NCBI RefSeq assembly: GCF_963576675.1
Contig: NC_088913.1
Coordinates: 19,666,001 to 19,730,000 of the forward strand
Direction: 5' to 3'
DNA: 64,000 bases
Source: Euphorbia lathyris
Taxonomy: Eukaryota > Streptophyta > Magnoliopsida > Malpighiales > Euphorbiaceae
In this document: positions 4,155 through 63,480 of the stretch, one piece after another
Layout: each line of letters starts with the position of its first letter
Position numbering within the stretch: position 1 is the first letter of the stretch
Program-made: the position numbers and the translations under genes
The notes under the pieces: generated by a model
The model's input: only the letters and a program-made list of their open reading frames with translations
Database searches by the model: none
Told to the model about the DNA's origin: nothing

Positions 4155-4159
4155 CGTGC

Positions 4160-19591: not shown

Positions 19592-19666
19592 TTTGATATT
19601 CTTTTCTTCCGCACATCTTCTTTCAATTTCTCTTTACTTTTTCAATTTCTATTTTTAATCACAATC

Positions 19667-23968: not shown

Positions 23969-23982
23969 TCACTGTCAGCTTG

Positions 23983-23989
23983 CGGGGGG
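23983..23989 (+). promoter_or_regulatory. Copia-2 polypurine tract
   Basis: A G-run (CGGGGGG) immediately precedes the 3' LTR. Confidence 0.8.
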
Positions 23990-24200
23990 TGTTAAGTAAG
24001 TTAAAATATAGGTGCTGTTTGTGTATTTTACCATACAGCTAATTGACAGCTAATTAATTTCTTATTGTTGTATTCTATAAATAGGAAAGATAGCTGTAGG
24101 TTTTAGGTACTTTTCATTTTTCTCCTGTAAATTGATTTCTTCTTTCCTTCTCTTTTTCATTAATAAAGACTTCTTCTTCTCTACTTCTTTATTATCAAGA
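23990..24200 (+). repeat. Copia-2 3' LTR
   Basis: 211 bp. It starts TGTTAAGTAAG directly after the G-run and ends CAAGA before the target duplication TTACA. Confidence 0.93.
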
Positions 24201-24205
24201 TTACA

Positions 24206-27541: not shown

Positions 27542-28052
27542 TGATGCAGACATCCTAACTGAGATCACTGATCACAGGCGCTCTGGCGAATCCCCAGACA
27601 TCAGACCCACGGAGGTTATACCTAGGAGGGCGGATCCCCAAGACAAGCAAGTTGGGCGAATCTAGGAGTACGCAAGGAGGCGTATCAACATCTACCCTGG
27701 GCGGATCTCTCGGCTTACTTCCTCCTGAAGTAATTCACCAACAACCCTGATAATCCGTACCTGTACCAATGTACTGTTTGTCGGGGCGTATCACCTATTT
27801 TACCCTTTTAGGGATAGCCTTATTGTAACCCTAGTAGGGGTAATCCTTGTCTTTTGTTATCATTAAGGGAAAGTATTTAAACCCTCATTTTGTAAGAGTG
27901 ACGACAACTTTTATCAATCAAACATCATTTCTCTTTGAGAACTTAAGGTTTATACCTTGTTATTGGGATTCACTCCTTCTAGTTTAGCTAGAGAAGAACC
28001 TCTTTGTTGGTTTACGATTAAAACATTCATTTATCGCTTTCAATCTGTATCA
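27542..28052 (+). repeat. Gypsy 5' LTR
   Basis: 511 bp. By eye about a dozen substitutions separate it from the 3' LTR, so it is older than Copia-2 and Copia-3. Confidence 0.92.
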
Positions 28053-28054
28053 GT

Positions 28055-28066
28055 TGGTATCAGAGC
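28055..28066 (+). promoter_or_regulatory. Gypsy primer-binding site
   Basis: TGGTATCAGAGC, two bases inside the 5' LTR, matches initiator tRNA-Met. Confidence 0.9.
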
Positions 28067-28099
28067 CGATCGTTTCCTGACCCGAAACTTCTTTTGGCA

Positions 28100-31278: not shown

Positions 31279-32772
31279 ATAAGTTCCCCTATAAGCTTAT
31301 CCATAAGGCTGGAAAACAGAACAAGGTGGCGGACGCCTTGAGTCGAAGGGTGTCACTAATCAAGACAGTAAACCTGGAGACCGATTGTTTTGAACACATC
31401 CGAGGAGAATACTTGGCAGATCCTGATTTTGGTAGTATCTGGGAAAAATGTAAGAACCAGCATGGAGATGGAGCGTATCACCTGATGGATGAGTATCTCA
31501 TGAGGGGCAACCAACTTTGCCTAACCTTGCACTTCCATTCGCGAGAAGGTTGTTCGGGATCTACATGGCGGATCCCTAGGAGGGCATTTTGGGCGAGATA
31601 AAACATATGAAGCAGTAAGTTCCCGCTATTTCTGGCCTAAGATGAGGAGAGATGTTGCATACTTAGTAGAACGATGCTATGTTTGCCAGACCGCTAAGGG
31701 ACGCACTACAAATGCGGGCTTGCAGTTACCTTTGCCTGTGCCAGAGACCATATGGGAGGATCTGTCCATGGACTTTGTCCTAGGATTACCCAGAACTCAG
31801 AGGGGCATGGATTCCATCTTTGTCGTGGTTGATCGGTTTTCAAAGATGGCTCACTTCATACCATGTCGCAAGACTAATGATGCCTCAACGACTGCTAAGC
31901 TATTCTTCAAAGAGATTGTCAGGCTACATGGCGTACCTAAGAGCATCGTCTCAGATCGTGATACGAAGTTCCTCAGTCACTTCTGGCGGACATTGTGGGC
32001 TTTGTTCGATATGTCTCTGAAGTTTAGTACCACCGCCCACCCTCAAACAGACGGACAGACAGAAGTGGTCAATAGAACCTTGGGAAACTTACTGCGCAGC
32101 AAGTGTAAGGATAAGTCCAGGGTGTGGGATGTGGTTCTAGCCCAAGCTGAGTTCGCCTACAACGGCTCTGTACATTCGGGAATCGGGGGATCTCCATTTG
32201 AGGTTGTATACACAAAGACCCCGAATCACGTCCTTGATATAGCCCATCTTCCTAGAGGAAACGTGACTGCCAACCAGCTGGCCAAGGATTATGTACAGAT
32301 GCACCAAGAGGTGAGAGAGACTCTTGAGCAGAGAAATCAGAAATTAAAGGCTAAGGCGGATGAGCACCGTAGGGACCTACAGTTTGAAGTCGGGGATGAG
32401 GTTATGGTATATTTGGGCAAAGAGAGACTCGCCAACGCCGCAAGTAGCAAACTTCGGCCTAGGAAATACGGGCCATATAAGATCACCAAGAAGGTCAATG
32501 CCAATGCCTATCATATAGCATTGCCGAACTGGCTTGGTAAAATCTCACCAGCATTCAACATCCGTGACCTTAGCCCATGGAAGCCGGATGGTCCTTTGGA
32601 GTTCAAACAGGGCGAATCGGTGCCGAGTTCTTTTAAAGAAGGAGAGAATGATGCGGACATCCTAACTGAGATCACTGATCACAGGCGCTCTGGCGAATCC
32701 CCATACATCAGACCCACAGAGGTTATACCTAGGAGGGCGGATCCCCAAGACAAGCAAGCTGGGCGAATCTAG
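31251..32772 (+). pseudogene. Gypsy RNase H end and integrase, two frames
   Basis: 31251-31601 continues RNase H ([27 protein letters not shown]), shifts out near 31545, and resumes by 31642. Integrase: zinc region CYVCQTAKG, core [47 protein letters not shown]. The C-terminal GPY-type block is [20 protein letters not shown], then FNIRDLSPW. No canonical chromodomain is evident. The last 40 or so residues are encoded by the 3' LTR (stop at 32770-32772). Confidence 0.9.
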
Positions 32773-33240
32773 GAGTACGCAAGGAGGCGTATCAACATCT
32801 ACCCTGGGCGGATCTCTCAGCTTACTTCCTCCCGAAGTAATTCACCAACAACCCTGACAATCCGTACCTGTACCAATGTACTGTTTGTCGGGGCGTATCA
32901 CCTATTTTACCCTTTTAGGGATAGCCTTATTATAACCCTAGTAGGGGTAATCCTTGTCTTTTGTTATCATTAAGGGGAAGTTTTTAAACCCTCATTTTGT
33001 AAGAGTGACGACAACTTTTATCAATCAAACATCATTTCTCTTTGAGAACTTAAGGTTTATACCTTGTTATTGGGATTCACTCCTTCTAGTTTAGCTAGAG
33101 AAGAACCTATTTGTTGGTTTACGATTAAAACCTTCATTTATCGCTTGTTATTGGGATTCACTCCTTCTAGTTTAGCTAGAGAAGAACCTCTTTGTTGGTT
33201 TACCATTAAAACCTTCATTTATCGCTTTCAATCTGTATCA
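32649..33240 (+). repeat. Gypsy 3' LTR with 81-bp tandem duplication
   Basis: 592 bp. The excess of 81 bp over the 5' LTR is a direct duplication of the segment starting CTTGTTATTGGGATTCACTC (about 33064-33144 and 33145-33225). The first 124 bases also encode the end of the integrase ORF. Confidence 0.92.
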
Positions 33241-33582
33241 CATTTTCACCATTATTTTCATGAAAATCTCTTTCTTTAATTAATACATACAAGCCTTTAA
33301 ATCTGTAAATTCGACATTCACGTTCAAAATTCCCAAAATCAAAACCTAAAATTAAATTACCCAAAAATTCTCATACTCTGGCCAAATTCAACATTAATTG
33401 TTCAATTTCCGAAATCAAAACCTAAAATCAAATTGCCCAGAAATTCTCAAGCTCTGGTTTTCAATTTGTTCAACAAATAAGCATTAGTGGAGGCTTTAAT
33501 TGGGAAAAAAATTGCCCAGAAATTCTACAAATTCCTATGCTTTGGTTTTTTTTATTTTCTTTTATTTTTCCATGCTTAAAAC

Positions 33583-40306: not shown

Positions 40307-40435
40307 TGATAATGTAGAATCCTTGCATTTCCATTCATTGATAATGTGATATATATACACAAGATATATGTGTGAACATGATAATTACAAATCAATTATA
40401 TTCCTAAATTACAGCAGAAATATCCATATCTAATA
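40307..40435 (-). repeat. Copia-3 3' LTR
   Basis: 129 bp. It supplies the stop codon of the polyprotein: the last sense codon and TAG are the first six bases of the LTR. Confidence 0.93.
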
Positions 40436-42265
40436 CACCCCCGTAGTCGAAACGGGAGGTGGTCGAACGTTGAGACTAGAGCGGAAGTCGTCGAAAAGAA
40501 TTTGTGGTAGACCTTTGGTGAAAATATCTGCAATTTGATGACGAGAAGGAACATGAAGTACCCTAACCTCTCCTTTAGCAACCTTTTCTCGAACAAAATG
40601 TATATCCATCTCAATATGCTTGGTACGTTGGTGTTGTACAGGATTACCAGTGAGGTAAACTGCACTCACATTGTCACAATATACCAAGGTGGATTTACTA
40701 ATAGGGCAATGAAGTTCAAGAAGAAGATTTCTAATCCAGCAAGTTTCAGATACGACATTAGCAACACCACGATACTCTGCTTCAGCACTAGAACGAGATA
40801 AAGTGGGTTGCCGCTTAGCAGACCAAGACAGAAGATTGTCACCAAGGAAAACACAATATCCTGAAGTAGAACGTCGAGTGTCAGGACATCCCCCCCAATC
40901 TGCATCTGTATAGGAGACCAAGGAATCTAGTGAAGAGGTTGTGAATGTAAGTCCGAACTCCAGGGTTCCTTTAACATATCGAAGAATCCGCTTGATAGCT
41001 GCCATATGAGACGTTTTGGGATCGTGCATGAATAAACAGACTTGCTGAACAGCATAACTGATGTCTGGGCGAGTGAGAGTCAAATACTGTAATGCACCAG
41101 CTAAACTTCGATACTCAGATGGATCATGATAAGCAGAACCAGATGAAGCACTCAGTTTTTGCTTAGTGTCAACAGGTGTTGTACAGGAATTTGCTGAAGA
41201 AAGACCGGCTTTAGAAATGATCTCAGTAGCATACTTCTTTTGAGACAGAAAAAGAGAGCCGGCGCTCCGAGTGACAGATATCCCTAAAAAATAACTCAAT
41301 GGGCCAAGATCTTTCATAGCAAATTCGGAACTCAATTTGTTGATAATTGACTCTCGTAGAGCAGTGGAAGAAGTAGCTAGAACGATGTCATCCACATATA
41401 AGAGTAGATATGCCATCTCTGCTCCCCGACGAAAGACAAACAGTGAATGATCAGATTTACTGTGAGAAAAACCCATGGTAGACAAGAAAGAGGCAAACCG
41501 TTGGTACCACGCCCGTGGTGCCTGTTTGAGACCATAAAGAGACTTTTGAAGAAGGCATACATGATCTGGATAGTTGGGATCCCGAAATCCCAGTGGTTGA
41601 TGCATATAAACAGTCTCATGAAGATCCCCATGAAGAAAAGCATTTTTTACATCCAGCTGATGTAGTGGCCAACCTTTAGAAAGTGCAATACTTAATACAG
41701 CTCGAATTGTTGCTGGCTTAACAACTGGACTGAAAGTATCACCACAGTCTACCCCAACAAGTTGATTCGCCCCATTTCCAACAAGTCTTGCTTTGTATCT
41801 TTCAAAAGATCCATCTGCATTAAATTTGTGCCTGAGAATCCACCAACTACGAAGAACATTAGCATTAGAAGGACGGGGTACGAGGACCCACGTCTTATTT
41901 TCAATAAGAGCCTTATATTCTTCAGTCATGGCTTGTTTCCAATTAGGGTCTTGTAAAGCAAGTGAGGGATTAGAAGGAATAGGAGAAATAGTGGTGGTGT
42001 GTAAGTTGAGCTTTCTTTGGGGTTTGAAAATTCCAAGTTTAGTTCGGGTTGTCATAGGGTGAGTCGGTTGGGTTGGGTTGGCGTGTATAGGATCGGGAGA
42101 AGGCGGGGAAGTGGGCTGTTGTGGGGAGGTGAGCTGTTGTGGGGAATTTGTGTTTGGGCCGTGTTGAATTGGAGAAGGAAAGGGACTGTCGAGAGGAGAA
42201 GGGGGAAGTGCTGGGCTGTTTTGGGAAGATGGGTTGGGACTGTTGGGCCGTGGTGAAACTGGGCT
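40430..42265 (-). CDS. Copia-3 reverse transcriptase and RNase H, intact frame
   Basis: This is in the same frame as the gag/integrase part, separated only by one TAA. After a Pro/Ser/Gln-rich linker, the first Met is at 42055. RT: WKQAMTEEYKAL, FERYKARLVGNGANQ, LDVKNAFLHGDL, YGLKQAPRAWYQ, LLYVDDIVLA. RNase H: YTDADWGGCPDTRRSTSGYC, RSSAEAEYRGVAN, YCDNVSAVYL, TKHIEMDIHFVREKV, IADIFTKGLP. The YVDD and the RNase H acidic residues are all present. It is probably made only if the stop is read through, or from an internal start. Confidence 0.92.
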   Translation of the reverse strand, partial: SPVSPRPNSPNPSSQNSPALPPSPLDSPFPSPIQHGPNTNSPQQLTSPQQPTSPPSPDPIHANPTQPTHPMTTRTKLGIFKPQRKLNLHTTTISPIPSNPSLALQDPNWKQAMTEEYKALIENKTWVLVPRPSNANVLRSWWILRHKFNADGSFERYKARLVGNGANQLVGVDCGDTFSPVVKPATIRAVLSIALSKGWPLHQLDVKNAFLHGDLHETVYMHQPLGFRDPNYPDHVCLLQKSLYGLKQAPRAWYQRFASFLSTMGFSHSKSDHSLFVFRRGAEMAYLLLYVDDIVLATSSTALRESIINKLSSEFAMKDLGPLSYFLGISVTRSAGSLFLSQKKYATEIISKAGLSSANSCTTPVDTKQKLSASSGSAYHDPSEYRSLAGALQYLTLTRPDISYAVQQVCLFMHDPKTSHMAAIKRILRYVKGTLEFGLTFTTSSLDSLVSYTDADWGGCPDTRRSTSGYCVFLGDNLLSWSAKRQPTLSRSSAEAEYRGVANVVSETCWIRNLLLELHCPISKSTLVYCDNVSAVYLTGNPVQHQRTKHIEMDIHFVREKVAKGEVRVLHVPSRHQIADIFTKGLPQILFDDFRSSLNVRPPPVSTTGVY

Positions 42266-44332
42266 TTAGTTAGGAGTGGACGCATTAGTGGGGAAGGGAA
42301 TAATGGGTTGGGTTGTTTGTGTAGGTGAGTTGGAAATAGAAGAAATGGGAGGGGAGGCCGAGACATGTTGAGTGGAAAATGGAAATTTGCTTTCATTGAA
42401 AATAACGTGACGAGATATAATTATTTTCCGCGCGGAGATGTCGTAACACTTATAGCCTCGATGATTGGATGGATATCCAAGAAACACACATGGAGAGGAC
42501 CTAGGTTGAAGTTTATTTCTAGAGGAAGAAGGGACAAGTGGGTAACAAAGACAACCGAAAGTGCGTAAGTGAGTATAAGAAGGAGTACGATTGTAGAGAA
42601 TTTGAGTCGGTGAAAGAAGACTAAGATTTTTGTGAGGGAGAATATTTAAAAGATAGGTCGCATGAGCAAGAGCATGAGGCCAGAAAGAATGAGAGCAAGA
42701 ATCATGTGTTAGAAGAGTGCGAATTATATTATTGATTGTTCGAATCGTTCGTTCAGATTTACCGTTTTGGGAGGAAGTATGTGGACATGAAAAACGGAAT
42801 TGCATACCATTATTGTTAAAAAAATCATGAAAATGACTATTGTTATACTCACCACCATTATCACACTGAAAAGTTTTGATATCTTTTTCAAATTGAGTAC
42901 GTACGTAATTTCGGAATGTGAGGAACACAGAAAAAACTTGAGATTTATTTGCTAAGGGAAAAGTCCACAGAAAATTAGAATAATCATCTAGGAAAAGAAC
43001 ATAATATCTATAGCCACTAGAACTTAGAACAGGAGATGTCCATATATCACTATGAATAATATCAAACGGCATTGATGACATATTTTTAGAAGCATAAAAA
43101 GGCAATTTAATATGTTTCCCAAGCACACAAGAATTGCAAATAGAAAAATCAACATTTTTAGGACAAGAAATAAAATTATTAGTTCGAAGATTGTCTAAAA
43201 TTTGAGGACCAGGATGGCCCAATCTATTGTGCCAAACTGAAGGAGATAAAACAGAAGCATTTAAAGCATAAGAAGACTCTGAAGAGGAGGATGTGACTGG
43301 ATATAAATCACCGGTGCTATTACATCTCATAATAGGGATCCCCGTGCGCAAGTCCTTCACAGAGAAACCAACAGGATCAAATTCAACGGACACATTATTA
43401 TCAATAGCAAATTTCCGCACAGATATAAGGTTTTTGATTAATCTAGGGGCATGTAAAACATTGTTCAATTCTAGGGTTTTGTTGTTTGTTTTTAAGGATG
43501 CATTACCAAGACCGCCTCTGCCACGGCGATAATAACCCCGGCCACCGCGAGCAGCGCCAGAATTTTGAGGGAAAGAAGGCCGAACGTGATTTGAATATGG
43601 AGGAGCTTGATTCGACGGGGACTGTTGGGCGATAGTAACGGCGGCAATTTCAGATCCGACGGTGGCGGCTGTGCGTTTTTTACGGGCAGATTCTTCCAAT
43701 AATAACATGGACCTTGCCTTTGTGAAATTGGGCAGAATGTCATTGTGGCGAATTTGTGTTCCGATTGTCTCGTAGGCGTCAGTGAGCCCCGAAATTAATT
43801 GAAGAACGAGACGATCGTTGGATACGACAGCCCCGACGTTGCTTAATTGGTCCGAGAGGGACTTCAAATGTTGGCAGTAGGCAGAGATATCATCAAAATT
43901 TTCAAGTCTAGCATTGGACAGTTCTTGTTGTAAATAAAGGGCTCTTGAATTTTTATTATCGGAGAATTGTTGTTCTAGGAGTTTCCAAGCGCCGGCGGCT
44001 GTTAAATTTGGTCCGATGATACTGTTGAGAAGGTCTGAAGATATGGTTCCATAAATCCATTGCAACACGATGGCATCAACACGAGACCATAAACCTGGAT
44101 TCTTTGCTTTCATAACCGAAGAAGAGGTTTCCGATTTATCGTCGGTTTCAGGAAGGATATGATCAAGAACTTGAAAAGCACGGGCATGTGTTTTAAAAAG
44201 TTCAGCCCAAGTGGTATAGAGGCCTTTGCCGGATTCGAGAGGATCACGAATAAAGGAGGTAATGTTGATAATGGAGAGGGCCGGATGAGTTGGTGCGGCG
44301 GCGGCACCATTGTTTTGTTCATTGTTTGGCAT
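42266..44332 (-). pseudogene. Copia-3 gag and integrase, protease region deleted
   Basis: The Met chosen is MPNNEQNNGAAAAP at 44332; the frame upstream is leader and LTR. Capsid: YTTWAELFKTHARAF, VLQWIYGTISSDLL, AGAWKLLEQQFSDN, LRHN-like end. After GYYRRGRGGLG the text jumps straight to KTLELNNVLHAPRLIKNLIS, which in relatives lies after the protease. The CX2CX4HX4C knuckle and the DSGA motif are absent, with no frame change (joint near 43500). Integrase: WHNRLGHPG, HSDIWTSP, QCDNGGEY, SSQNGKSERTIRT. It ends at a TAA (42266-42268), after which the frame stays open into RT. Confidence 0.92.
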
Positions 44333-44448
44333 GGTGGCAGTAGAGTTTTTAGGGATGAAGAACGGCAGAATGAGGAAGAGAGAAAGAAGAGATTTGGGTG
44401 GGATTAGGGAGAGAAATTTTAGGAGAGAGTTTTTAGGAAAGAAATTAG

Positions 44449-44461
44449 GCTCATGATACCA
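44449..44461 (-). promoter_or_regulatory. Copia-3 primer-binding site
   Basis: The minus strand reads TGGTATCATGAGC, directly abutting the LTR. It resembles the initiator tRNA-Met site but has TGAGC where GAGC is usual. Confidence 0.8.
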
Positions 44462-44590
44462 TGATAATGTAGAATCCTTGCCTTTCCATTCATTGATAAT
44501 GTGATATATATACACAAGATATATGTGTGAACATGATAATTACAAATCAATTATATTCCTAAATTACAGCAGAAATATCCATATCTAATA
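44462..44590 (-). repeat. Copia-3 5' LTR
   Basis: 129 bp; one A/C difference from the 3' LTR. Confidence 0.93.
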
Positions 44591-48465: not shown

Positions 48466-48521
48466 CTTAGGCTTGGAAAAATTGTATGTATTTAGTCCTC
48501 ATCTTTTTAATATATTTTTAT
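48466..48521 (+). repeat. 56-bp target-site duplication, left copy (LINE-B)
   Basis: Identical base for base, by eye, to 62204-62259. It begins CTTAGGCTTGGAAAAATTG. Confidence 0.93.
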
Positions 48522-48549
48522 CAAGAGGTTAGCTCTAATCTTTATTCCT

Positions 48550-49475
48550 TTGATTTCTTCTAATCTTTATTCCTTTGATAACTATGTGTTGATTATGAAC
48601 AAATGGAGCTTAGGGGTTAATGTGGATGATGTGCCTTTGTCAAACTATTCAATATGGGTTCAAATTTATGGCTTGCCAATGGGGACTATGTCTAAGATAG
48701 TGGGAAAACAATTAGGGAATTTCTTGGGAGAATTTGAGGAGTATGATGAAAATAATAACATTGGCATACATAGGCAATTTATGCGTATTAGAGTCAGCCT
48801 GAACAGTAGAATGCCGCTGAAAAGATTTAAGAAACTAAAAAGTGCTGGAAATATCTGGTCGTTGGCTACTTTCAAATATGAACGCTTGGGAATTTTCTGC
48901 TATATTTGTGGCTTGTTGGGACACACGGAACGATTTTGTGAAAAATTGTTTGACCTGTAGGGGGTGGAAATTCAGAGAGAGTGGGGGGATTGGCTTAAGG
49001 CCCCAATGAGAAGCGGGGGTGATCAGAGTGGGGCGAAGTGGTTGAGGGAGAGTAATGGAAGCGGTATGTCAGGAGGGGGTCAGAGAGGGCGTGGGAATTT
49101 CAGGGGTGGCTGGGCGGGAGCCCCGAGGGATGCTACTATTTTGGGAAGAGGGAGAGGGGAGAGAGTGCCACCTAAACAACTAGGGGGAGGGGAGAGGGAA
49201 GTGATGATATGCCCCTATTCAGGGCCTTTTTTAAGGCATCAGTAGAAACTGGGGGAGAAGTGAACGGGGGAGAGGAAGGGGGAGATAATGGGGTCTTAGA
49301 GGACACTGAGATGGAGTTAACTGAAGTAAGAAAGAGGAGAAGGGAGGGGCAGGGGAGAGAGAGGGGTAGGGAGAATGTGCAAGGAGAAGAAGTCTCTGTT
49401 CTTGGAAAGGATAAGGGGATTTCTACAGACAAAGATTCGGTGAGGCCTAGTGCACAGGGCCGCCCAGGGGAATGA
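48550..49475 (+). pseudogene. LINE-B ORF1, 5'-truncated
   Basis: Begins within the DUF4283 region (LIMNKWSLGVNVDDVPLS, WVQIYGLP), followed by the zinc knuckle CYICGLLGHTERFC (CX2CX4HX4C). A TAG at 48958-48960 interrupts. The same frame then continues with a Gly/Arg-rich tail to 49245, and a shift to the next frame (near 49209-49245) carries an acidic/basic tail to TGA at 49473-49475. The ORF1 stop and the ORF2 start overlap as ATGA. ORF1 proteins bind the element's RNA. A 21-bp repeat (TCTAATCTTTATTCCTTTGA) is duplicated at the 5' edge (48534, 48559). Confidence 0.82.
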
Positions 49476-50646
49476 GTTGTTTAAGCTGGAACTGTCGTGG
49501 TCTGAGAAATCATCGGGCAGTTCGTTCCTTAAAGGAGTTAGTTTCGTCCCAAAAACCGGTTATTTTATTTTTAATGGAGACTCTAGTAGAAGATCAGCGT
49601 TTGGGCTCTATAAAACAGCAGTTGAAGTTTGAAGGGGCTTTCTCTATAAATAGAAGAGGGCGTAGTGGTGGATTAGCAATGTTATGGAAAGCAGAGATAC
49701 AGGTGTCGATTAAAAGCTTCTCTGAGCATCATATCGACGCGATAATTTCTAACAATGTACATAGAGATTGGGGGCTTGTAGGTTTCTACGGGTTCGCTGA
49801 ACGCAGTAGGCATGGAGAATCTTGGGAGCTATTGAGGAGACTAGCTAGAGACTCCCAACTACCGTGGGTGGTGATAGGGGACTTTAATTGCATTATGAAC
49901 TCTGTTGAAAAGGCGGGGGGTGCTATTTCCCTACCTATTTAATGCAGGAGTTCGCTAAAGCTATTGAGGAGTGTGGATTGTGTGAACTGGAACTAAAAGG
50001 TAACCCTTTTACTTGGGAAAGAGGCAGGGGTTCTGAGTTGTGGGTTAGAGAAAAGCTTGACAGGGGCTTTGCTTCGACAGAGTGGTTGAACCGGTTTGCT
50101 AATTACCATCTTCAATCTTGCATGTCTAGGTATTCAGACCATCTACCAATCTTACTTGGTTTAGAAAGGGAGACGGGAAGAAGCAAGGCTAAAAGATTCT
50201 TTTTTGAGGAGAATTGGTTAAAGGAGCATGAGTTTAAGAAGCTTGTGATCAGTAATTGGATGGGACAGGGTAGCAGGCCTGTTCCTGAAAAGCTGAAGAA
50301 TTGTGTGAAGAAGATGGCTGAGTGGAGGAAGGGTTTTAATGTGCACTTTAAGAATCAGATAAGGAAATGGAGAAACCAAATAGAGAAATTACATGGTAAG
50401 AGTGATAAGGAGTCGATTACTCTATATTTCTTAGTCAAGAGAAAACTTAATGACACCCTGGAAGCAGAAGAAATCTATTGGAAGCATAGGGCTAAGGTCT
50501 TCTGGTTGACTGAGGGAGATAGAAATACACAGTTCTTCCATGCTAGCGTCAGAGCAAGGAGACAACATAATTCTATTGCATCGCTCATCAATGAGTTAGG
50601 GGAAGAGGTGGATAATCAGGGAGAGATGTTGGAGTTAGCACAATAA
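49472..50646 (+). pseudogene. LINE-B ORF2 endonuclease and N-terminal RT
   Basis: Start ATG at 49472: MSCLSWNCRGLRNHRAVRSL (the WNCRG motif). Then FLMETL (catalytic Glu), LAMLWK, VVIGDFNCIMN and, after a frameshift near 49915-49935 beside a G-run, the region ending SDHLPILL, the terminal S-D-H of the endonuclease. This enzyme nicks the target for target-primed reverse transcription. Next comes the connecting region: FFFEENWL, WLTEGDRNTQFFHASVRARR. A TAA ends the frame at 50644-50646 before YFQSVFSTSN, which continues in register. Confidence 0.9.
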
Positions 50647-51655
50647 TACTTCCAATCTGTTTTCTCTACATCAAACACGAATGGGGCCGAAACGGTTCAG
50701 GTTATTGACACAATGATTGATTCAGCTACAAATGATGCTCTCACGGCACCTTTTGAGATGGAGGAGTTTAAACAGGCCCTATTTTCTATGAGTCCGAACA
50801 AATCTCCTGGCCCTGATGGGCTAAACCCAGGATTTTTTCAAACCTTTGGGATACAATGGGTGTGGAATTGGGAGCGGCTTGTGCAAAATGGCTTAAAGAC
50901 GGGAATTTCCTAATGGGGTCAATGATACGACAATTTTCCTTATTCCTAAAATTGACAACCCTAGAATGTTGAAGGATTTTCGTCCTATCTCCCTGTGCAA
51001 TGTAATCTATAAGATAATTGCCAAGTCACTAGCAAATCGATTGAAGGGGGTCCTCCCTCAGATAATTGGAGAAACACAATCTGCTTTTGTCCCTGGAAGA
51101 TCTATATTTGACAATGTACAGGTGGCCTTTGAAAATATCCACTTCATGAAAAGGCTGAACAGAGGAAAAGAAGGACAACCTGCCCTTAAGATTGACATCA
51201 GCAAGGCCTATGACAGGGTGGATTGGGATTTCTTGAAACTGGTAATGATTCGCATGGGATTTCATGAGACATGGATTAATTGGATGATGTTATGCATTAC
51301 AACAGTGAAGTATAGGGTGGCTGTGAATGGAGAATGCACCGAGCAAATTGTCCCAGGCAGGGGGCTTAGACAGGGAGACCCGTTATCCCCTTACCTGTTT
51401 ATTCTATGTGCAGAAGTCTTATCCAAGTTAATAAGAAAAGCAGAAGGTGAGGGACTAATATCAGGTTGCCGAATTTGCCGCAGGGCTCCGGCCATTACAC
51501 ATCTTTTCTTTGCTGATGATAGTTTTTTGTTCTTTGGAGCAACGACAGATGAAGCTAGAAAGGTGATGAGCATTTTGACCGAGTATGAGGTCGCTTCGGG
51601 ACAGGCTGTGAATTTGAATAAATCTGGCATATTTTTTAAGTGCAAATGTGACTGA
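50647..51655 (+). pseudogene. LINE-B reverse transcriptase core
   Basis: SPNKSPGPDGLNPGFFQ, then a frame loss near 50830-50880. RT resumes by 50966: FRPISLCNVIYKIIAKSLAN, ETQSAFVPGRSIFDNV, LKIDISKAYDRVDW (first catalytic Asp), GLRQGDPLSPYLFILC, HLFFADDSFLF (FADD). A one-base slip at the T-run near 51634 ends the frame at 51655. The next frame carries on with EDVKVEIQGLLGV. The tandem array begins inside this domain, at 51355, just before RQGDPLSPYLF. Confidence 0.92.
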
Positions 51656-52775
51656 GGATGTGAAAGTTGAGATTCAAGGGCTGCTGGGGGTTAGCATTCC
51701 TCTAGACACGAGCCGATATCTAGGACTGCCTTCACTAATTGGACGTTCTAAACGTCGGATATTCATTTTCCTAGTTGATAGGCTGAGGAAGAAGTTTGGT
51801 GCTTGGGGGCTGAAATTCTTATCCCAGGCTGGGAAGGAGGTGTTGCTTAAGTCAGTGGCTCAGGCTCTGCCTACCTTCTGCATGAGTACGTTTCTTTTAC
51901 CCTTATCTATATGTGATGAGATTTAAAAGCTAATGAATTCTTTTTGGTGGGGTATGAAACCTGGGGGGGAAAGAAATATCCATTGGTTCGATTGGGGAAA
52001 ATTATGAATGCCAAAAGACCTAGGAGGAATGGGGTTCAAAGACTTACACATGTTTAATTTGGCAATGTTAGGAAAGCAGTGGAAACTTATAAAATACCCA
52101 AATAATATAGTAAGTAGAATGTTCAAAGCGAAATATTTTCCTAATGAAGACTTACTTTTCTCTAAATTAGGCAATAATCCTAGTATGGTTTGGAGAAGTA
52201 TCTGGGGAGGCATTAGCATACTTAGAAAAGGGCTAAGATGGAAGGTAGGGAATGGAAGATCTATTAGAGTTTGGGAGGATGCATGGGTACCTAATCTAGA
52301 TGATTTTTGTATAAACTCTTTTATGGTCCCTAGAATGGAGGATTTAAAGGTTGCTGATTTATTGCTTGAGAATGGTAGAGGGTGGGACTTGGATAGACTA
52401 AAGGGGTGCTTTAGTGAAGCTGAAGTGCATGTCATTAGTGATATTATCCTACCATTCAATGTTGGGGAGGATATGAGAATCTGGCACTGGTCTAAAGATG
52501 GGTTCTATAATGTGCGTTCGGGTTACCTGGCGGGAATGGGGATTGAATAGGGAAGCAGAGTGCAGGAGGGATGGAGAAGTCTATGGAAACTGTTGATTCC
52601 CCCGAAGCATAAACAGTTTATATGGCGGATATGTTCGAGGTGTTTACCAACTCGAGCTAGGTTGGCCTAAAGAAGAGTCACTATCACAGTTGAATGCCTG
52701 GTGTGTGTCGAGCAGGATGAAACAGATAACCATTTATTTGCGGGATGTTGTTTTGCAGGTGATATTTGGCGAATA
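51648..52775 (+). pseudogene. LINE-B RT end and zf-RVT, array copy 1
   Basis: From 51648: YLGLPSLIGRSKRRIFIF, FLSQAGKEVLLKSVAQ, FCMSTFLLP, then TAA. From 52008: MPKDLGGMGFKDLHMFNLAM, WRSIWGG, GNGRSIRVWEDAWV, RIWHWSKDGFYNVRSGYL, then TAG. After that, FIWRICSRCLPTRARLA, TAA, and CLVCVEQDETDNHLFAGC (zinc motif). The matching ORFs recur at 53315 and 53675, 54982 and 55342, 56649 and 57009, 58316 and 58676, 59983 and 60343. LINE-A has sense codons at the first two stop positions, so these stops are mutations fixed before amplification. Confidence 0.93.
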
Positions 52776-53021
52776 ACATGCACTAGAGATGGTCTAAAAA
52801 GCAAGATACCATCATCACCTAGTCCTAATATTCCATTTCCTTGAGATTTTTCTCACTCTGAAAGATACTATAAATACCAAAATTTGAGTTGCAAGTGTCA
52901 GACATATCTTACTTGCAAAAATGGAACTAGTCTTTGGACAACTCCTCAGCATCAGACCATAACATCAAAGTTGCCAAAAGCGCCATCGTCGCAGTTTCAA
53001 CACGCAGGCGAAGTGGTCCAA
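52776..53021 (+). repeat. 246-bp non-LINE spacer of the array unit (copy 1 of 5)
   Basis: Other copies are at 54443-54688, 56110-56355, 57777-58022 and 59444-59689. It begins ACATGCACTAGAGATGG and ends GCGAAGTGGTCCA. It contains a TATA-like box, then a 13-codon ORF (MELVFGQLLSIRP) starting at 52921. It is found nowhere else in the window and is absent from LINE-A. Its source is unknown; it reads like a fragment of a plant promoter and leader. Confidence 0.85.
52868..52877 (+). promoter_or_regulatory. TATA-like box in the array spacer
   Basis: CTATAAATAC, repeated in every spacer copy (54535, 56202, 57869, 59536). It lies about 45 nt above an ATG and about 150 nt above the next LINE segment, reading in the LINE's sense direction. 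Promoter activity is only inferred. Confidence 0.4.
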
Positions 53022-56000
53022 AGGCAGGGGGCTTAGACAGGGAGACCCGTTATCCCCTTACCTGTTTATTCTATGTACAGAAGTCTTATCCAAGTTAATA
53101 AGAAAAGCAGAAGGTGAGGGACTAATATCAGGTTGCCGAATTTGCCGCAGGGCTCCGGCCATTACACATCTTTTCTTTGCTGATGATAGTTTTTTGTTCT
53201 TTGGAGCAACGACAGATGAAGCTAGAAAGGTGATGAGCATTTTGACCGAGTATGAGGTCGCTTCGGGACAGGCTGTGAATTTGAATAAATCTGGCATATT
53301 TTTTAAGTGCAAATGTGACTGAGGATGTGAAAGTTGAGATTCAAGGGCTGCTGGGGGTTAGCATTCCTCTAGACACGAGCCGATATCTAGGACTGCCTTC
53401 ACTAATTGGACGTTCTAAACGTCGGATATTCATTTTCCTAGTTGATAGGCTGAGGAAGAAGTTTGGTGCTTGGGGGCTGAAATTCTTATCCCAGGCTGGG
53501 AAGGAGGTGTTGCTTAAGTCAGTGGCTCAGGCTCTGCCTACCTTCTGCATGAGTACGTTTCTTTTACCCTTATCTATATGTGATGAGATTTAAAAGCTAA
53601 TGAATTCTTTTTGGTGGGGTATGAAACCTGGGGGGGAAAGAAATATCCATTGGTTCGATTGGGGAAAATTATGAATGCCAAAAGACCTAGGAGGAATGGG
53701 GTTCAAAGACTTACACATGTTTAATTTGGCAATGTTAGGAAAGCAGTGGAAACTTATAAAATACCCAAATAATATAGTAAGTAGAATGTTCAAAGCGAAA
53801 TATTTTCCTAATGAAGACTTACTTTTCTCTAAATTAGGCAATAATCCTAGTATGGTTTGGAGAAGTATCTGGGGAGGCATTAGCATACTTAGAAAAGGGC
53901 TAAGATGGAAGGTAGGGAATGGAAGATCTATTAGAGTTTGGGAGGATGCATGGGTACCTAATCTAGATGATTTTTGTATAAACTCTTTTATGGTCCCTAG
54001 AATGGAGGATTTAAAGGTTGCTGATTTATTGCTTGAGAATGGTAGAGGGTGGGACTTGGATAGACTAAAGGGGTGCTTTAGTGAAGCTGAAGTGCATGTC
54101 ATTAGTGATATTATCCTACCATTCAATGTTGGGGAGGATATGAGAATCTGGCACTGGTCTAAAGATGGGTTCTATAATGTGCGTTCGGGTTACCTGGCGG
54201 GAATGGGGATTGAATAGGGAAGCAGAGTGCAGGAGGGATGGAGAAGTCTATGGAAACTGTTGATTCCCCCGAAGCATAAACAGTTTATATGGCGGATATG
54301 TTCGAGGTGTTTACCAACTCGAGCTAGGTTGGCCTAAAGAAGAGTCACTATCACAGTTGAATGCCTGGTGTGTGTCGAGCAGGATGAAACAGATAACCAT
54401 TTATTTGCGGGATGTTGTTTTGCAGGTGATATTTGGCGAATAACATGCACTAGAGATGGTCTAAAAAGCAAGATACCATCATCACCTAGTCCTAATATTC
54501 CATTTCCTTGAGATTTTTCTCACTCTGAAAGATACTATAAATACCAAAATTTGAGTTGCAAGTGTCAGACATATCTTACTTGCAAAAATGGAACTAGTCT
54601 TTGGACAACTCCTCAGCATCAGACCATAACATCAAAGTTGCCAAAAGCGCCATCGTCGCAGTTTCAACACGCAGGCGAAGTGGTCCAAAGGCAGGGGGCT
54701 TAGACAGGGAGACCCGTTATCCCCTTACCTGTTTATTCTATGTACAGAAGTCTTATCCAAGTTAATAAGAAAAGCAGAAGGTGAGGGACTAATATCAGGT
54801 TGCCGAATTTGCCGCAGGGCTCCGGCCATTACACATCTTTTCTTTGCTGATGATAGTTTTTTGTTCTTTGGAGCAACGACAGATGAAGCTAGAAAGGTGA
54901 TGAGCATTTTGACCGAGTATGAGGTCGCTTCGGGACAGGCTGTGAATTTGAATAAATCTGGCATATTTTTTAAGTGCAAATGTGACTGAGGATGTGAAAG
55001 TTGAGATTCAAGGGCTGCTGGGGGTTAGCATTCCTCTAGACACGAGCCGATATCTAGGACTGCCTTCACTAATTGGACGTTCTAAACGTCGGATATTCAT
55101 TTTCCTAGTTGATAGGCTGAGGAAGAAGTTTGGTGCTTGGGGGCTGAAATTCTTATCCCAGGCTGGGAAGGAGGTGTTGCTTAAGTCAGTGGCTCAGGCT
55201 CTGCCTACCTTCTGCATGAGTACGTTTCTTTTACCCTTATCTATATGTGATGAGATTTAAAAGCTAATGAATTCTTTTTGGTGGGGTATGAAACCTGGGG
55301 GGGAAAGAAATATCCATTGGTTCGATTGGGGAAAATTATGAATGCCAAAAGACCTAGGAGGAATGGGGTTCAAAGACTTACACATGTTTAATTTGGCAAT
55401 GTTAGGAAAGCAGTGGAAACTTATAAAATACCCAAATAATATAGTAAGTAGAATGTTCAAAGCGAAATATTTTCCTAATGAAGACTTACTTTTCTCTAAA
55501 TTAGGCAATAATCCTAGTATGGTTTGGAGAAGTATCTGGGGAGGCATTAGCATACTTAGAAAAGGGCTAAGATGGAAGGTAGGGAATGGAAGATCTATTA
55601 GAGTTTGGGAGGATGCATGGGTACCTAATCTAGATGATTTTTGTATAAACTCTTTTATGGTCCCTAGAATGGAGGATTTAAAGGTTGCTGATTTATTGCT
55701 TGAGAATGGTAGAGGGTGGGACTTGGATAGACTAAAGGGGTGCTTTAGTGAAGCTGAAGTGCATGTCATTAGTGATATTATCCTACCATTCAATGTTGGG
55801 GAGGATATGAGAATCTGGCACTGGTCTAAAGATGGGTTCTATAATGTGCGTTCGGGTTACCTGGCGGGAATGGGGATTGAATAGGGAAGCAGAGTGCAGG
55901 AGGGATGGAGAAGTCTATGGAAACTGTTGATTCCCCCGAAGCATAAACAGTTTATATGGCGGATATGTTCGAGGTGTTTACCAACTCGAGCTAGGTTGGC

Positions 56001-59000
56001 CTAAAGAAGAGTCACTATCACAGTTGAATGCCTGGTGTGTGTCGAGCAGGATGAAACAGATAACCATTTATTTGCGGGATGTTGTTTTGCAGGTGATATT
56101 TGGCGAATAACATGCACTAGAGATGGTCTAAAAAGCAAGATACCATCATCACCTAGTCCTAATATTCCATTTCCTTGAGATTTTTCTCACTCTGAAAGAT
56201 ACTATAAATACCAAAATTTGAGTTGCAAGTGTCAGACATATCTTACTTGCAAAAATGGAACTAGTCTTTGGACAACTCCTCAGCATCAGACCATAACATC
56301 AAAGTTGCCAAAAGCGCCATCGTCGCAGTTTCAACACGCAGGCGAAGTGGTCCAAAGGCAGGGGGCTTAGACAGGGAGACCCGTTATCCCCTTACCTGTT
56401 TATTCTATGTACAGAAGTCTTATCCAAGTTAATAAGAAAAGCAGAAGGTGAGGGACTAATATCAGGTTGCCGAATTTGCCGCAGGGCTCCGGCCATTACA
56501 CATCTTTTCTTTGCTGATGATAGTTTTTTGTTCTTTGGAGCAACGACAGATGAAGCTAGAAAGGTGATGAGCATTTTGACCGAGTATGAGGTCGCTTCGG
56601 GACAGGCTGTGAATTTGAATAAATCTGGCATATTTTTTAAGTGCAAATGTGACTGAGGATGTGAAAGTTGAGATTCAAGGGCTGCTGGGGGTTAGCATTC
56701 CTCTAGACACGAGCCGATATCTAGGACTGCCTTCACTAATTGGACGTTCTAAACGTCGGATATTCATTTTCCTAGTTGATAGGCTGAGGAAGAAGTTTGG
56801 TGCTTGGGGGCTGAAATTCTTATCCCAGGCTGGGAAGGAGGTGTTGCTTAAGTCAGTGGCTCAGGCTCTGCCTACCTTCTGCATGAGTACGTTTCTTTTA
56901 CCCTTATCTATATGTGATGAGATTTAAAAGCTAATGAATTCTTTTTGGTGGGGTATGAAACCTGGGGGGGAAAGAAATATCCATTGGTTCGATTGGGGAA
57001 AATTATGAATGCCAAAAGACCTAGGAGGAATGGGGTTCAAAGACTTACACATGTTTAATTTGGCAATGTTAGGAAAGCAGTGGAAACTTATAAAATACCC
57101 AAATAATATAGTAAGTAGAATGTTCAAAGCGAAATATTTTCCTAATGAAGACTTACTTTTCTCTAAATTAGGCAATAATCCTAGTATGGTTTGGAGAAGT
57201 ATCTGGGGAGGCATTAGCATACTTAGAAAAGGGCTAAGATGGAAGGTAGGGAATGGAAGATCTATTAGAGTTTGGGAGGATGCATGGGTACCTAATCTAG
57301 ATGATTTTTGTATAAACTCTTTTATGGTCCCTAGAATGGAGGATTTAAAGGTTGCTGATTTATTGCTTGAGAATGGTAGAGGGTGGGACTTGGATAGACT
57401 AAAGGGGTGCTTTAGTGAAGCTGAAGTGCATGTCATTAGTGATATTATCCTACCATTCAATGTTGGGGAGGATATGAGAATCTGGCACTGGTCTAAAGAT
57501 GGGTTCTATAATGTGCGTTCGGGTTACCTGGCGGGAATGGGGATTGAATAGGGAAGCAGAGTGCAGGAGGGATGGAGAAGTCTATGGAAACTGTTGATTC
57601 CCCCGAAGCATAAACAGTTTATATGGCGGATATGTTCGAGGTGTTTACCAACTCGAGCTAGGTTGGCCTAAAGAAGAGTCACTATCACAGTTGAATGCCT
57701 GGTGTGTGTCGAGCAGGATGAAACAGATAACCATTTATTTGCGGGATGTTGTTTTGCAGGTGATATTTGGCGAATAACATGCACTAGAGATGGTCTAAAA
57801 AGCAAGATACCATCATCACCTAGTCCTAATATTCCATTTCCTTGAGATTTTTCTCACTCTGAAAGATACTATAAATACCAAAATTTGAGTTGCAAGTGTC
57901 AGACATATCTTACTTGCAAAAATGGAACTAGTCTTTGGACAACTCCTCAGCATCAGACCATAACATCAAAGTTGCCAAAAGCGCCATCGTCGCAGTTTCA
58001 ACACGCAGGCGAAGTGGTCCAAAGGCAGGGGGCTTAGACAGGGAGACCCGTTATCCCCTTACCTGTTTATTCTATGTACAGAAGTCTTATCCAAGTTAAT
58101 AAGAAAAGCAGAAGGTGAGGGACTAATATCAGGTTGCCGAATTTGCCGCAGGGCTCCGGCCATTACACATCTTTTCTTTGCTGATGATAGTTTTTTGTTC
58201 TTTGGAGCAACGACAGATGAAGCTAGAAAGGTGATGAGCATTTTGACCGAGTATGAGGTCGCTTCGGGACAGGCTGTGAATTTGAATAAATCTGGCATAT
58301 TTTTTAAGTGCAAATGTGACTGAGGATGTGAAAGTTGAGATTCAAGGGCTGCTGGGGGTTAGCATTCCTCTAGACACGAGCCGATATCTAGGACTGCCTT
58401 CACTAATTGGACGTTCTAAACGTCGGATATTCATTTTCCTAGTTGATAGGCTGAGGAAGAAGTTTGGTGCTTGGGGGCTGAAATTCTTATCCCAGGCTGG
58501 GAAGGAGGTGTTGCTTAAGTCAGTGGCTCAGGCTCTGCCTACCTTCTGCATGAGTACGTTTCTTTTACCCTTATCTATATGTGATGAGATTTAAAAGCTA
58601 ATGAATTCTTTTTGGTGGGGTATGAAACCTGGGGGGGAAAGAAATATCCATTGGTTCGATTGGGGAAAATTATGAATGCCAAAAGACCTAGGAGGAATGG
58701 GGTTCAAAGACTTACACATGTTTAATTTGGCAATGTTAGGAAAGCAGTGGAAACTTATAAAATACCCAAATAATATAGTAAGTAGAATGTTCAAAGCGAA
58801 ATATTTTCCTAATGAAGACTTACTTTTCTCTAAATTAGGCAATAATCCTAGTATGGTTTGGAGAAGTATCTGGGGAGGCATTAGCATACTTAGAAAAGGG
58901 CTAAGATGGAAGGTAGGGAATGGAAGATCTATTAGAGTTTGGGAGGATGCATGGGTACCTAATCTAGATGATTTTTGTATAAACTCTTTTATGGTCCCTA

Positions 59001-61035
59001 GAATGGAGGATTTAAAGGTTGCTGATTTATTGCTTGAGAATGGTAGAGGGTGGGACTTGGATAGACTAAAGGGGTGCTTTAGTGAAGCTGAAGTGCATGT
59101 CATTAGTGATATTATCCTACCATTCAATGTTGGGGAGGATATGAGAATCTGGCACTGGTCTAAAGATGGGTTCTATAATGTGCGTTCGGGTTACCTGGCG
59201 GGAATGGGGATTGAATAGGGAAGCAGAGTGCAGGAGGGATGGAGAAGTCTATGGAAACTGTTGATTCCCCCGAAGCATAAACAGTTTATATGGCGGATAT
59301 GTTCGAGGTGTTTACCAACTCGAGCTAGGTTGGCCTAAAGAAGAGTCACTATCACAGTTGAATGCCTGGTGTGTGTCGAGCAGGATGAAACAGATAACCA
59401 TTTATTTGCGGGATGTTGTTTTGCAGGTGATATTTGGCGAATAACATGCACTAGAGATGGTCTAAAAAGCAAGATACCATCATCACCTAGTCCTAATATT
59501 CCATTTCCTTGAGATTTTTCTCACTCTGAAAGATACTATAAATACCAAAATTTGAGTTGCAAGTGTCAGACATATCTTACTTGCAAAAATGGAACTAGTC
59601 TTTGGACAACTCCTCAGCATCAGACCATAACATCAAAGTTGCCAAAAGCGCCATCGTCGCAGTTTCAACACGCAGGCGAAGTGGTCCAAAGGCAGGGGGC
59701 TTAGACAGGGAGACCCGTTATCCCCTTACCTGTTTATTCTATGTACAGAAGTCTTATCCAAGTTAATAAGAAAAGCAGAAGGTGAGGGACTAATATCAGG
59801 TTGCCGAATTTGCCGCAGGGCTCCGGCCATTACACATCTTTTCTTTGCTGATGATAGTTTTTTGTTCTTTGGAGCAACGACAGATGAAGCTAGAAAGGTG
59901 ATGAGCATTTTGACCGAGTATGAGGTCGCTTCGGGACAGGCTGTGAATTTGAATAAATCTGGCATATTTTTTAAGTGCAAATGTGACTGAGGATGTGAAA
60001 GTTGAGATTCAAGGGCTGCTGGGGGTTAGCATTCCTCTAGACACGAGCCGATATCTAGGACTGCCTTCACTAATTGGACGTTCTAAACGTCGGATATTCA
60101 TTTTCCTAGTTGATAGGCTGAGGAAGAAGTTTGGTGCTTGGGGGCTGAAATTCTTATCCCAGGCTGGGAAGGAGGTGTTGCTTAAGTCAGTGGCTCAGGC
60201 TCTGCCTACCTTCTGCATGAGTACGTTTCTTTTACCCTTATCTATATGTGATGAGATTTAAAAGCTAATGAATTCTTTTTGGTGGGGTATGAAACCTGGG
60301 GGGGAAAGAAATATCCATTGGTTCGATTGGGGAAAATTATGAATGCCAAAAGACCTAGGAGGAATGGGGTTCAAAGACTTACACATGTTTAATTTGGCAA
60401 TGTTAGGAAAGCAGTGGAAACTTATAAAATACCCAAATAATATAGTAAGTAGAATGTTCAAAGCGAAATATTTTCCTAATGAAGACTTACTTTTCTCTAA
60501 ATTAGGCAATAATCCTAGTATGGTTTGGAGAAGTATCTGGGGAGGCATTAGCATACTTAGAAAAGGGCTAAGATGGAAGGTAGGGAATGGAAGATCTATT
60601 AGAGTTTGGGAGGATGCATGGGTACCTAATCTAGATGATTTTTGTATAAACTCTTTTATGGTCCCTAGAATGGAGGATTTAAAGGTTGCTGATTTATTGC
60701 TTGAGAATGGTAGAGGGTGGGACTTGGATAGACTAAAGGGGTGCTTTAGTGAAGCTGAAGTGCATGTCATTAGTGATATTATCCTACCATTCAATGTTGG
60801 GGAGGATATGAGAATCTGGCACTGGTCTAAAGATGGGTTCTATAATGTGCGTTCGGGTTACCTGGCGGGAATGGGGATTGAATAGGGAAGCAGAGTGCAG
60901 GAGGGATGGAGAAGTCTATGGAAACTGTTGATTCCCCCGAAGCATAAACAGTTTATATGGCGGATATGTTCGAGGTGTTTACCAACTCGAGCTAGGTTGG
61001 CCTAAAGAAGAGTCACTATCACAGTTGAATGCCTG

Positions 61036-62161
61036 GTGTGTGTCGAGCAGGATGAAACAGATAACCATTTATTTGCGGGATGTTGTTTTGCAGGTGATAT
61101 TTGGCGAATAGCTGGAATTTCAGCTCCACAAGTGGGCGATCTGAACTTTGCTGATTGGCTATTAAAAGAGATTTGTGGTTCGAATCAGGATACCATTGTC
61201 CGGATTTGCTGTGCGCTAAAGACAATTTGGGATCACAGAAACAGAGTGTTGTCGCAAATGATTTGGTGGCCGACGGACACTAGTTGACGGATAGGATTGG
61301 ACGAGGTTCGTGACTGGAGGGCCTATCACCAAGGTATGCAGCCAAGAGACGGCAGACAACCGGATCAGCAAACCCGTGACACCATTACTGGGATGCAACT
61401 TGACGACGGATCCCAGCAACCGGTTCAGAAAGGCCTTGTTGAACTCGCGGTGTCCTTACCTTGCAGCACTATAGAGCGACGGCAGCAGCAGCATCATAAC
61501 AGCGGAATGACAGCGCCAGATCCCGGAACATCGTCGGCAGGTGCAATGAACGACGCGGAACAGCAGCGCCAGATCCTGAAACACCGTCGACCCCGGCCGA
61601 ACAGCAGCGATATATCCCACATAGCAGCACCCCCCCTATAGCAGACTCCCGATACGTACATTGGCTAATCAGAAATGGAAGCCACCTGATTCCGGTTCAG
61701 TTAAGTGTAATATTCACGGAGCCATCTTCAAGGAATTGGGGAGCAGCGGTATGGGAGCAGTAATTAGAGATGAAGTGGGAACATTCCTATTTTGTAGTAG
61801 CAGCTTTATCCCAGGTACAAAGGGGCCACGAGTAATCGAAGCACTGGCTATTCGCACTAGCATGATTTGGCTCGCTACTATGAGATACAGGAATGTTGAA
61901 TTCGAATTTGATGCTAAGATGGTTGTTGATGCAATTCATTCTGAAAAACAGGATATCTCTGAGTTTGGATCGCTTATTCATGATTGTCGAGCTATTTTAC
62001 GATCCAACTCTTCTTTTAAATTGTCTTCTCGTTTAGCGAACAGGGCGGCACATTTGGTAGCTAGGCAATCATGTTCCAATGCTAGCGATTTTTTGTCAAC
62101 TGTGGTACCAGATTGGTTATCAAACGTTATTGTTGAGGATGTCAATCCGAATTATATATGA
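61036..62161 (+). pseudogene. LINE-B zf-RVT end, linker and RNase H
   Basis: From 61036: CVEQDETDNHLFAGCCFAGD, then, outside the array, IWRIAGISAPQV and WDHRNRV. A Gln/Arg/Pro-rich linker (61297-61641) ends in a stop. RNase H is at 61661-62161: SVKCNIHGAIFKELGSSGMG, AVIRDEVG, VEFEFDAKMVVDAIHSE, ANRAAHLVARQS. The usual Asp of the first strand (NID in LINE-A) is His here (NIH), so a catalytic residue is lost. It stops at 62159-62161, shortly before the poly(A). Confidence 0.9.
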
Positions 62162-62178
62162 AATTCTTTCTTCAGGTT

Positions 62179-62201
62179 AAAAAAAAAAAAAAAAAAAAAA
62201 A
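62179..62201 (+). other. LINE-B poly(A) tail
   Basis: A run of 23 A's, 18 bases after the RNase H stop. Confidence 0.9.
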
Positions 62202-62203: not shown

Positions 62204-62259
62204 CTTAGGCTTGGAAAAATTGTATGTATTTAGTCCTCATCTTTTTAATATATTTTTAT
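62204..62259 (+). repeat. 56-bp target-site duplication, right copy (LINE-B)
   Basis: It starts two bases after the poly(A) tail and is identical to 48466-48521. Confidence 0.93.
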
Positions 62260-62627: not shown

Positions 62628-63073
62628 GAGTAAATTACACACATTGCCACTGAAATTTAGTCATTTTTACGATACTTCAAAATGTAACATAAACGTTACT
62701 CAACTTTATATTTCTAATATTATGATCACCATACTTTAACTAAAGCCTCAAAATGACAATTAACGGTCTCAAAATGAAATATTCAAAAAGTAGAGTTGTT
62801 AAAATGACATTTACCATAAAACGACATTTTTTTTTCCAAAATCACTAATTCTAGAGTTTTCTGTCTCTAAAATATTGCTTCCTCTTCTAATCAAACAACA
62901 CATAAATAACCTCAAAACGAAAATTTTGAAAAATTAAAGTTGCTTAGCAGATCATTAATTCTTGGTCATAACATTAAATATATAAAAAGTGATTTTTATA
63001 TTACGTCTTTTAAGTTTAATGACTATACCTTGAAAATATGCAATGTTCAGTGTCCATAGATGTAATTTACCCC
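62628..63073. mobile_element. Mutator-type MITE with 9-bp duplication
   Basis: The ends GAGTAAATTAC and GTAATTTACCCC are flanked by TTAATAAAG (62619-62627 and 63074-63082). The TIR is about 35 bp and imperfect. The interior 62740-62955 resembles 63240-63470 outside the element. Confidence 0.75.
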
Positions 63074-63229
63074 TTAATAAAGGGTCCGAATTAGATAAAG
63101 AATTGGGATATAAAAAAGTCAACTGATAAACAAATAAGCCCAAACAAACATGACATATTGTTACAAGAATTTTTGACATGAAAACTTTAGTTTTAAATTG
63201 AATAATTTTATAGTACATTTTTAATATCA

Positions 63230-63480
63230 TATCCATTGAATTTCAATTAAGCCTCAAAATAACTATGGACAGCCTCAAAATGGAGTCATCCAAGAATTAA
63301 AAATGTTTAAAACCACATTTACCATTCGAAACATGTTTTTTATTTTTCAAAAATTATCATTTATGGAACTTTATCTGTCTAAACATTTATTTTCTTTTTT
63401 CTAATCAAACAATGACTTTAAAACGAAAACGTTTGAAAAATTAAAACTGCTTAAACTATCATCAACTCTTAGAAATTTTT
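63230..63480 (+). repeat. Partial copy of the neighbouring MITE interior
   Basis: Shared blocks in order with 62740-62955: AAGCCTCAAAAT, CCTCAAAATG, ACATTTACCAT, TTCTAATCAAACAA, AAAACGAAAA, TTGAAAAATTAAA. Confidence 0.6.

Follow-up and report, generated by a model that had tools for sequence, protein, structure and literature searches.

How does a segment of a broken retrotransposon come to stand in tandem copies within its own parent element? The question is raised by a locus of Euphorbia lathyris (assembly GCF_963576675.1, contig NC_088913.1), where a 64,000-bp stretch of DNA (forward-strand positions 19,666,001 to 19,730,000; hereafter the window, whose positions are counted from 1) contains a long interspersed nuclear element (LINE) in which one segment recurs six times, each copy being separated from the next by a short sequence that does not belong to the LINE. 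On balance we favour, with moderate confidence, a scenario whereby template-switching break repair made a duplication of the LINE segment with a piece of a host gene as filler, and whereby unequal exchange then expanded this duplication into the present array. Our basis is one assembly, one locus and this one 64-kb window.

Anatomy of the array and of its host element

The array is confirmed in the given sequence. Comparison of the window with itself at a lag of 1,667 bp yields a continuous match over 51355-61110 with a single mismatch inside, and exact periodicity over 8 kb cannot have arisen by chance. In it, a 1,421-bp LINE segment, here called A, occurs six times on the plus strand (51355-52775, 53022-54442, 54689-56109, 56356-57776, 58023-59443 and 59690-61110), alternating with five copies of a 246-bp spacer (52776-53021, 54443-54688, 56110-56355, 57777-58022 and 59444-59689). 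Segment A extends from within the reverse transcriptase (RT) domain to the end of zf-RVT; in the sixth copy the zf-RVT match ends near 61104, and past this copy the LINE sequence resumes directly. The array amounts to 5.85 units of 1,667 bp. All five spacers are 100% identical, A copies 2-6 are identical to one another, and the sole variant base lies at 51410 (base 56 of A), being G in copy 1 and A in copies 2-6. A preliminary description, made by eye, had given the same coordinates, unit make-up and single differing base, all of which the lag comparison and the decomposition bear out; its five complete units and one partial unit are the same array counted as A plus spacer. As a head-to-tail series of highly similar units, 51355-61110 has the form of satellite DNA, and it is absent from the Tandem Repeats Finder list, in which the longest period is 500.

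Might this uniformity be a product of assembly? Conceivably, a single duplication or some other number of units was written out too often from a loop in the assembly graph, or polishing falsely equalised units that differ. The stretch formed by A copies 2-6 and their spacers, identical over 8 kb, is where miscounting is easiest, and the evidence is a single assembly. Even so, an error of this kind would still need a real LINE-spacer-LINE joint to start from; moreover, copy 1 is distinguished by 51410, both ends of the array continue into a LINE that is bounded by a matching target-site duplication, and the self-comparison of the window contains no other near-identical tandem duplication of at least 80 bp, but only two diverged ones (70-73%, at 33056-33457 and 62707-63470). 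We consider an assembly error unlikely. The unit number, being based on one assembly, is the least secure of our claims; the most secure, provided that the assembly is right, is the LINE-gene-LINE joint, of which each side is seen five times.

By its sequence, the host element is a plant L1-type LINE that is truncated at its 5' end. Pfam domains characteristic of the L1 type follow one another in the order DUF4283 (E-value 2.5e-17, covering profile positions 43-124 only), zf-CCHC_4 (5.3e-17), endonuclease (Exo_endo_phos, 2e-17), RVT_1 (2.1e-34), zf-RVT and RVT_3 (1.7e-16), which we take to be the order in those plant L1 LINEs that carry an RNase H domain. The zf-RVT match is split by a stop, with one half above and the other below the curated cutoff; on the piece starting at 61006 it reaches 7.5e-05, below that cutoff, and four of the ten pieces scanned had no Pfam match. 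The 5' part of the element (48522-51354, plus strand) comprises about 50 bp of uncertain origin, then the first open reading frame (ORF1) with DUF4283 and zf-CCHC_4, the endonuclease and the first part of RT, and the 3' part after zf-RVT (61111-62178, plus strand) comprises a linker and the RNase H-like RVT_3. A tail of 23 A follows (62179-62201), and the whole is flanked by a target-site duplication (48466-48521 and 62204-62259, 56/56 identical), which at 56 bp seems long for a LINE. The element shares the domain order, the A tail and the target-site duplication with plant L1 LINEs that have an RNase H domain, and differs from them in being truncated, interrupted by the array and broken, its reading frames being disrupted by stops and frame changes both inside and outside A. 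At the 5' junction (48522-48580), just ahead of the ORF1 coding start, stands a 21-bp direct repeat (TCTAATCTTTATTCCTTTGAT twice), which is perhaps another filler copied in at insertion.

How does the array sit in this element? When A is taken only once, the LINE reads through: at both array edges one stretch of LINE meets the next without any loss or duplication. At the left edge, the RT frame continues from the flanking sequence into copy 1, and a query containing this edge is covered to 98% by its best protein relative. At the right edge, an independent comparison is offered by a diverged LINE of the same type on the minus strand of the window (1526-5768, about 75% identical over two stretches), of which the stretch 4429-5768 aligns unbroken over the edge (75% identity) and contains neither array nor spacer; alignment to this relative leaves the array's left edge uncovered. 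Because the edges of A show neither target duplication nor loss, and because the right edge is continuous in this relative, the array points to a duplication with filler rather than to the insertion of a finished element, the donor locus of the filler being itself a prediction.

Origin of the spacer

Where does the spacer come from? The preliminary description had rightly called it foreign, and it can now be recognised, through protein homologues, as the putative 3' end of a host gene. Judged by these homologues, the spacer carries, antisense to the LINE, the end of a gene for an RsmE-type rRNA methyltransferase, namely its final 30 codons with their native stop, followed by 151 bp of 3' flank; in spacer 1, the predicted C-terminus lies on 53021-52930 of the minus strand, the stop (TAG) on 52929-52927, and the flank extends to 52776. 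A protein search with the minus-strand spacer frame (E limit 10) retrieved 11 homologues with E-values of 3.8e-7 to 3.4e-3; the spacer peptide shares 21 to 23 of 24 residues with each of them. Nine of the 11 have PF04452 in their precomputed annotation, one homologue is named (Populus), and all four homologues scanned against NCBIfam match the C-terminal end of 16S rRNA (uracil-1498-N3)-methyltransferase (RsmE) models, at scores below the full-protein cutoffs, as is expected for fragments. The spacer stop falls seven residues past an LWSD motif, as it does in eight homologues, the remaining three ending two residues past it. At the joint itself the spacer frame has Phe where all 11 homologues have Leu, which argues that the joint cuts a codon. 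The coding part of the spacer is undamaged, unlike the LINE. The peptide alone scores only E 0.24 against PF04452, which is below the cutoff and counts against this assignment; the identification rests on the homologues for that reason.

Other sources were considered and set aside. An origin from a bacterial plasmid or phage was rejected since neither collection contained a match, and an origin from elsewhere in the window was rejected since no second copy exists there outside the array, the best non-array match by E-value being 13 bp long. A processed mRNA copy was rejected because the spacer has no A tail; because every one of the 11 homologues continues in frame beyond the joint on its upstream side, a spliced and a genomic origin are inseparable. 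Nor does the spacer resemble a cut-and-paste transposon: a search for inverted pairs with arms of at least 9 nt found no terminal inverted repeats at its ends, and the two pairs that it did find (18 nt at 78% and 12 nt at 92%) do not join both ends. The six-frame Pfam scan of the spacer, the PDB search with its peptide and the Rfam search of the window at gathering thresholds each gave no match.

Formation and expansion of the array

In what order did these events take place? In-frame stops matching those at 51924, 52005, 52548 and 52668 are present in all six copies of A. Because these four lesions are common to every copy, the decay of A came before its amplification, as the preliminary description had proposed. 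Base 51410 appears to add a further step. It makes an Ala codon in copy 1 and a Thr codon in the others, and among the best 120 of 7,819 protein relatives, whose named members include dicots and grasses, the residue is Ala (the G allele) in 83, Thr (the A allele) in 11 and another residue in 26. Because most of these relatives have Ala, the G of copy 1 is probably ancestral, and its replacement by A would have arisen in the duplicated lineage before multiplication.

How might such an array have been made? We envision that a break in the already defective L1-type LINE underwent faulty repair, in which the nascent strand would copy the LINE up to 52775, switch to a host gene of the RsmE type, copy 246 bp from its 3' end, and then switch back to the LINE 1,421 bp upstream, at 51355. 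The product would be a tandem duplication with an ectopic filler (LINE A, gene filler, LINE A), in which the duplicated copy carried, or soon gained, the change from G to A at base 56. Direct repeats of A might then serve unequal exchange between sister chromatids or homologues, eventually giving six copies of A and five spacers. What the sequence shows is the anatomy, the identity of the components, the near-absence of divergence, and decay ahead of amplification; the faulty repair, the direction in which it copied and exchange as the means of expansion are what we infer from this arrangement. The preliminary description had listed a circle, unequal exchange, a nascent satellite and assembly error as routes; these were reasonable, but the list missed the unit-forming step, a tandem duplication with copied-in filler for which no circle is needed.

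One of the joints can be compared with its predicted donor. At the spacer-to-LINE joint, the conserved Gly-Leu-Gly-Pro together with the kept codons predicts GTCCAAG in the donor, where the LINE has GTCCCAG (one mismatch in seven), and such a near-match would suit template switching in break repair. A match as good as GTCC(A/C)AG occurs at 0.8% of 5,282 LINE positions, the seven letters having been picked after the joint was viewed, and the joint holds one A more than either the predicted donor or the LINE. For rice, a review attributes to inaccurate break repair both tandem duplications and short duplications whose donors are ectopic (PMC7407515), and another review describes filler DNA at plant junctions of transferred DNA (T-DNA; PMC8871565). 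The account of plant duplications born of repair (Vaughn and Bennetzen, 2014, as described in PMC7407515) resembles our case in the ascription to break repair and in that some of the duplications contain sequence from an ectopic donor, and differs from it in that those insertions measure 10-1000 bp, whereas the present unit is a 1,667-bp composite that was later multiplied.

Could exchange alone produce the observed order of alleles? In a simulation of random unequal exchange starting from a G/A duplicate, 26,911 of 200,000 runs reached six copies, and 24,484 of these (91%) showed exactly G,A,A,A,A,A. The same pattern would, however, be expected from a different intermediate, namely a chimeric 1,667-bp extrachromosomal circle composed of LINE and gene piece, which was copied by the rolling-circle mode and whose concatemer entered the LINE by homologous recombination. 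Integration at homology predicts seamless edges, as observed; by our reasoning, G in copy 1 only is predicted for most crossover positions; and the 8,335 bp of A copies 2-6 and five spacers, without any difference, fit one burst. In plants, satellite repeats have been documented in circular form, by a study that found no rolling-circle intermediates (PMC2543021). Such a route would require that a circle of two parts formed, was replicated and then came back to the same LINE from which it derived, whereas unequal exchange yields the same pattern without a circle. We prefer exchange, since it involves fewer unusual intermediates, and regard the circle as improbable.

Several further points weigh against a repair duplication followed by exchange. 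The source and flanks of the donor gene are predicted from its protein relatives, and the polarity at 51410 is likely but not certain. The rice insertions (10-1000 bp, PMC7407515) are smaller than the 1,667-bp composite. A lone variant base in 9.8 kb is too little to tell expansion by stepwise exchange from one burst, and the G/A pattern fits the exchange and the circle models in common, so that these data do not choose between the two.

When might the expansion postulated here have taken place? If plants accumulate 7e-9 to 1.3e-8 mutations per site per year, the upper bound (95% Poisson) on the age of the amplification is about 28,000 to 51,000 years when taken from 0 differences in 8,335 bp and about 37,000 to 69,000 years when taken from 1 difference in 9,756 bp; these bounds would be too low if exchange or assembly polishing homogenised the units. 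The perfect target-site duplication bounds the insertion of the LINE only to about 2 to 4 million years. This bears on the possibility that the array was already present in the LINE RNA and was retrotransposed here as a 13.7-kb element. The target-site duplication and the A tail are pristine despite the broken reading frames, as might be expected of a copy that was dead on arrival; yet a very long transcript would be required, and pristine 56-bp repeats, bounding the insertion only to a few million years, leave time enough for later decay and duplication. We deem an RNA-borne array very improbable, and retain a duplication within the resident LINE.

Relation to known satellites and neighbouring elements

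By analogy, the array would join a known kind of sequence, that of tandem arrays and satellites derived from retrotransposons. Satellites containing or resembling part of LINE ORF2 are described in animals, among them PROsat of Phodopus, Pvc20 of a seal and HinfI/CR1 of chicken (PMC9659126). According to the preliminary description, head-to-tail arrays are not what LINEs normally make; this is a fair statement about the element as such, yet with ORF2-derived satellites in print the array is less exceptional than that description suggests. The animal cases resemble ours in being satellite DNA that contains or resembles part of LINE ORF2; they are named satellite DNAs, whereas the present case is one small array in a plant, still sits inside its parent LINE and contains an identified host-gene filler. 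In a plant, short tandem arrays within Ogre retrotransposons of Lathyrus sativus have been shown to be seeds of satellites (PMC7004042). Both are tandem repeats internal to a retrotransposon in a plant, but the Ogre repeats are subrepeats of the 3' untranslated region of a long terminal repeat retrotransposon and are dispersed over many copies, whereas ours involve a coding LINE segment at one locus in one window. The dense LINE-1 arrays of mouse (PMC5848613) were set aside as a parallel because they are LINE-rich regions rather than arrays of a unit. Among the open-licence PubMed Central papers listed in our searches, judged by titles and the openings of abstracts, we found no plant LINE array with a gene-fragment spacer. 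Unusual features of the array are its position within the parent LINE copy, a gene filler that can still be recognised, and a copy that is probably the founder.

What might such a locus tell us? No intact gene lies in the array, which is best regarded as nascent and satellite-like, without host function. The early stages of satellites are usually hidden, because the first copies diverge or get lost. Here the parent LINE would be legible together with a copy that is probably the founder, the gene family that supplied the filler, and the course of events from decay through duplication and a single mutation to amplification. It is tempting to speculate, although we hold this broader picture with somewhat less than even confidence, that a plant satellite has been caught at birth: a chimera of a dead LINE and a host-gene 3' end that arose in one template-switching repair, reached six copies within tens of thousands of years and still lies in its parent element, where the founder copy (G at 51410) and the family of the donor gene can be recognised. 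A single locus would then document the whole origin of a satellite, step by step. Given its small size, the array could be followed in populations. Conceivably, the multiplied antisense piece of a housekeeping-type gene could also feed small RNAs against the donor gene.

The remainder of the window holds further repeats. Just downstream of the LINE lies a diverged direct pair (62707-62963 and 63214-63470; 70%, offset 507 bp), which may be an older duplication or two related repeats, and a second diverged direct pair is found at 33056-33457 (73%, offset about 80 bp). Three elements have direct end repeats: a Copia-type element at 19369-24201 (212-bp repeats, 99.1% identical), whose open frame of 1,166 amino acids has its best relative in Euphorbia lathyris (53% identity); an element at 27542-33240 (repeats of about 500 bp, 97.6% identical) with frames that look Gypsy-like; and a minus-strand element at 40307-44590 (129-bp repeats, 99.2% identical) with frames that look Copia-like. 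Finally, three inverted pairs of 113 to 157 bp with 89-91% identity (6940-7499, 11832-12238 and 12259-12821) are possible hairpin-forming elements or resemble miniature inverted-repeat transposable elements.

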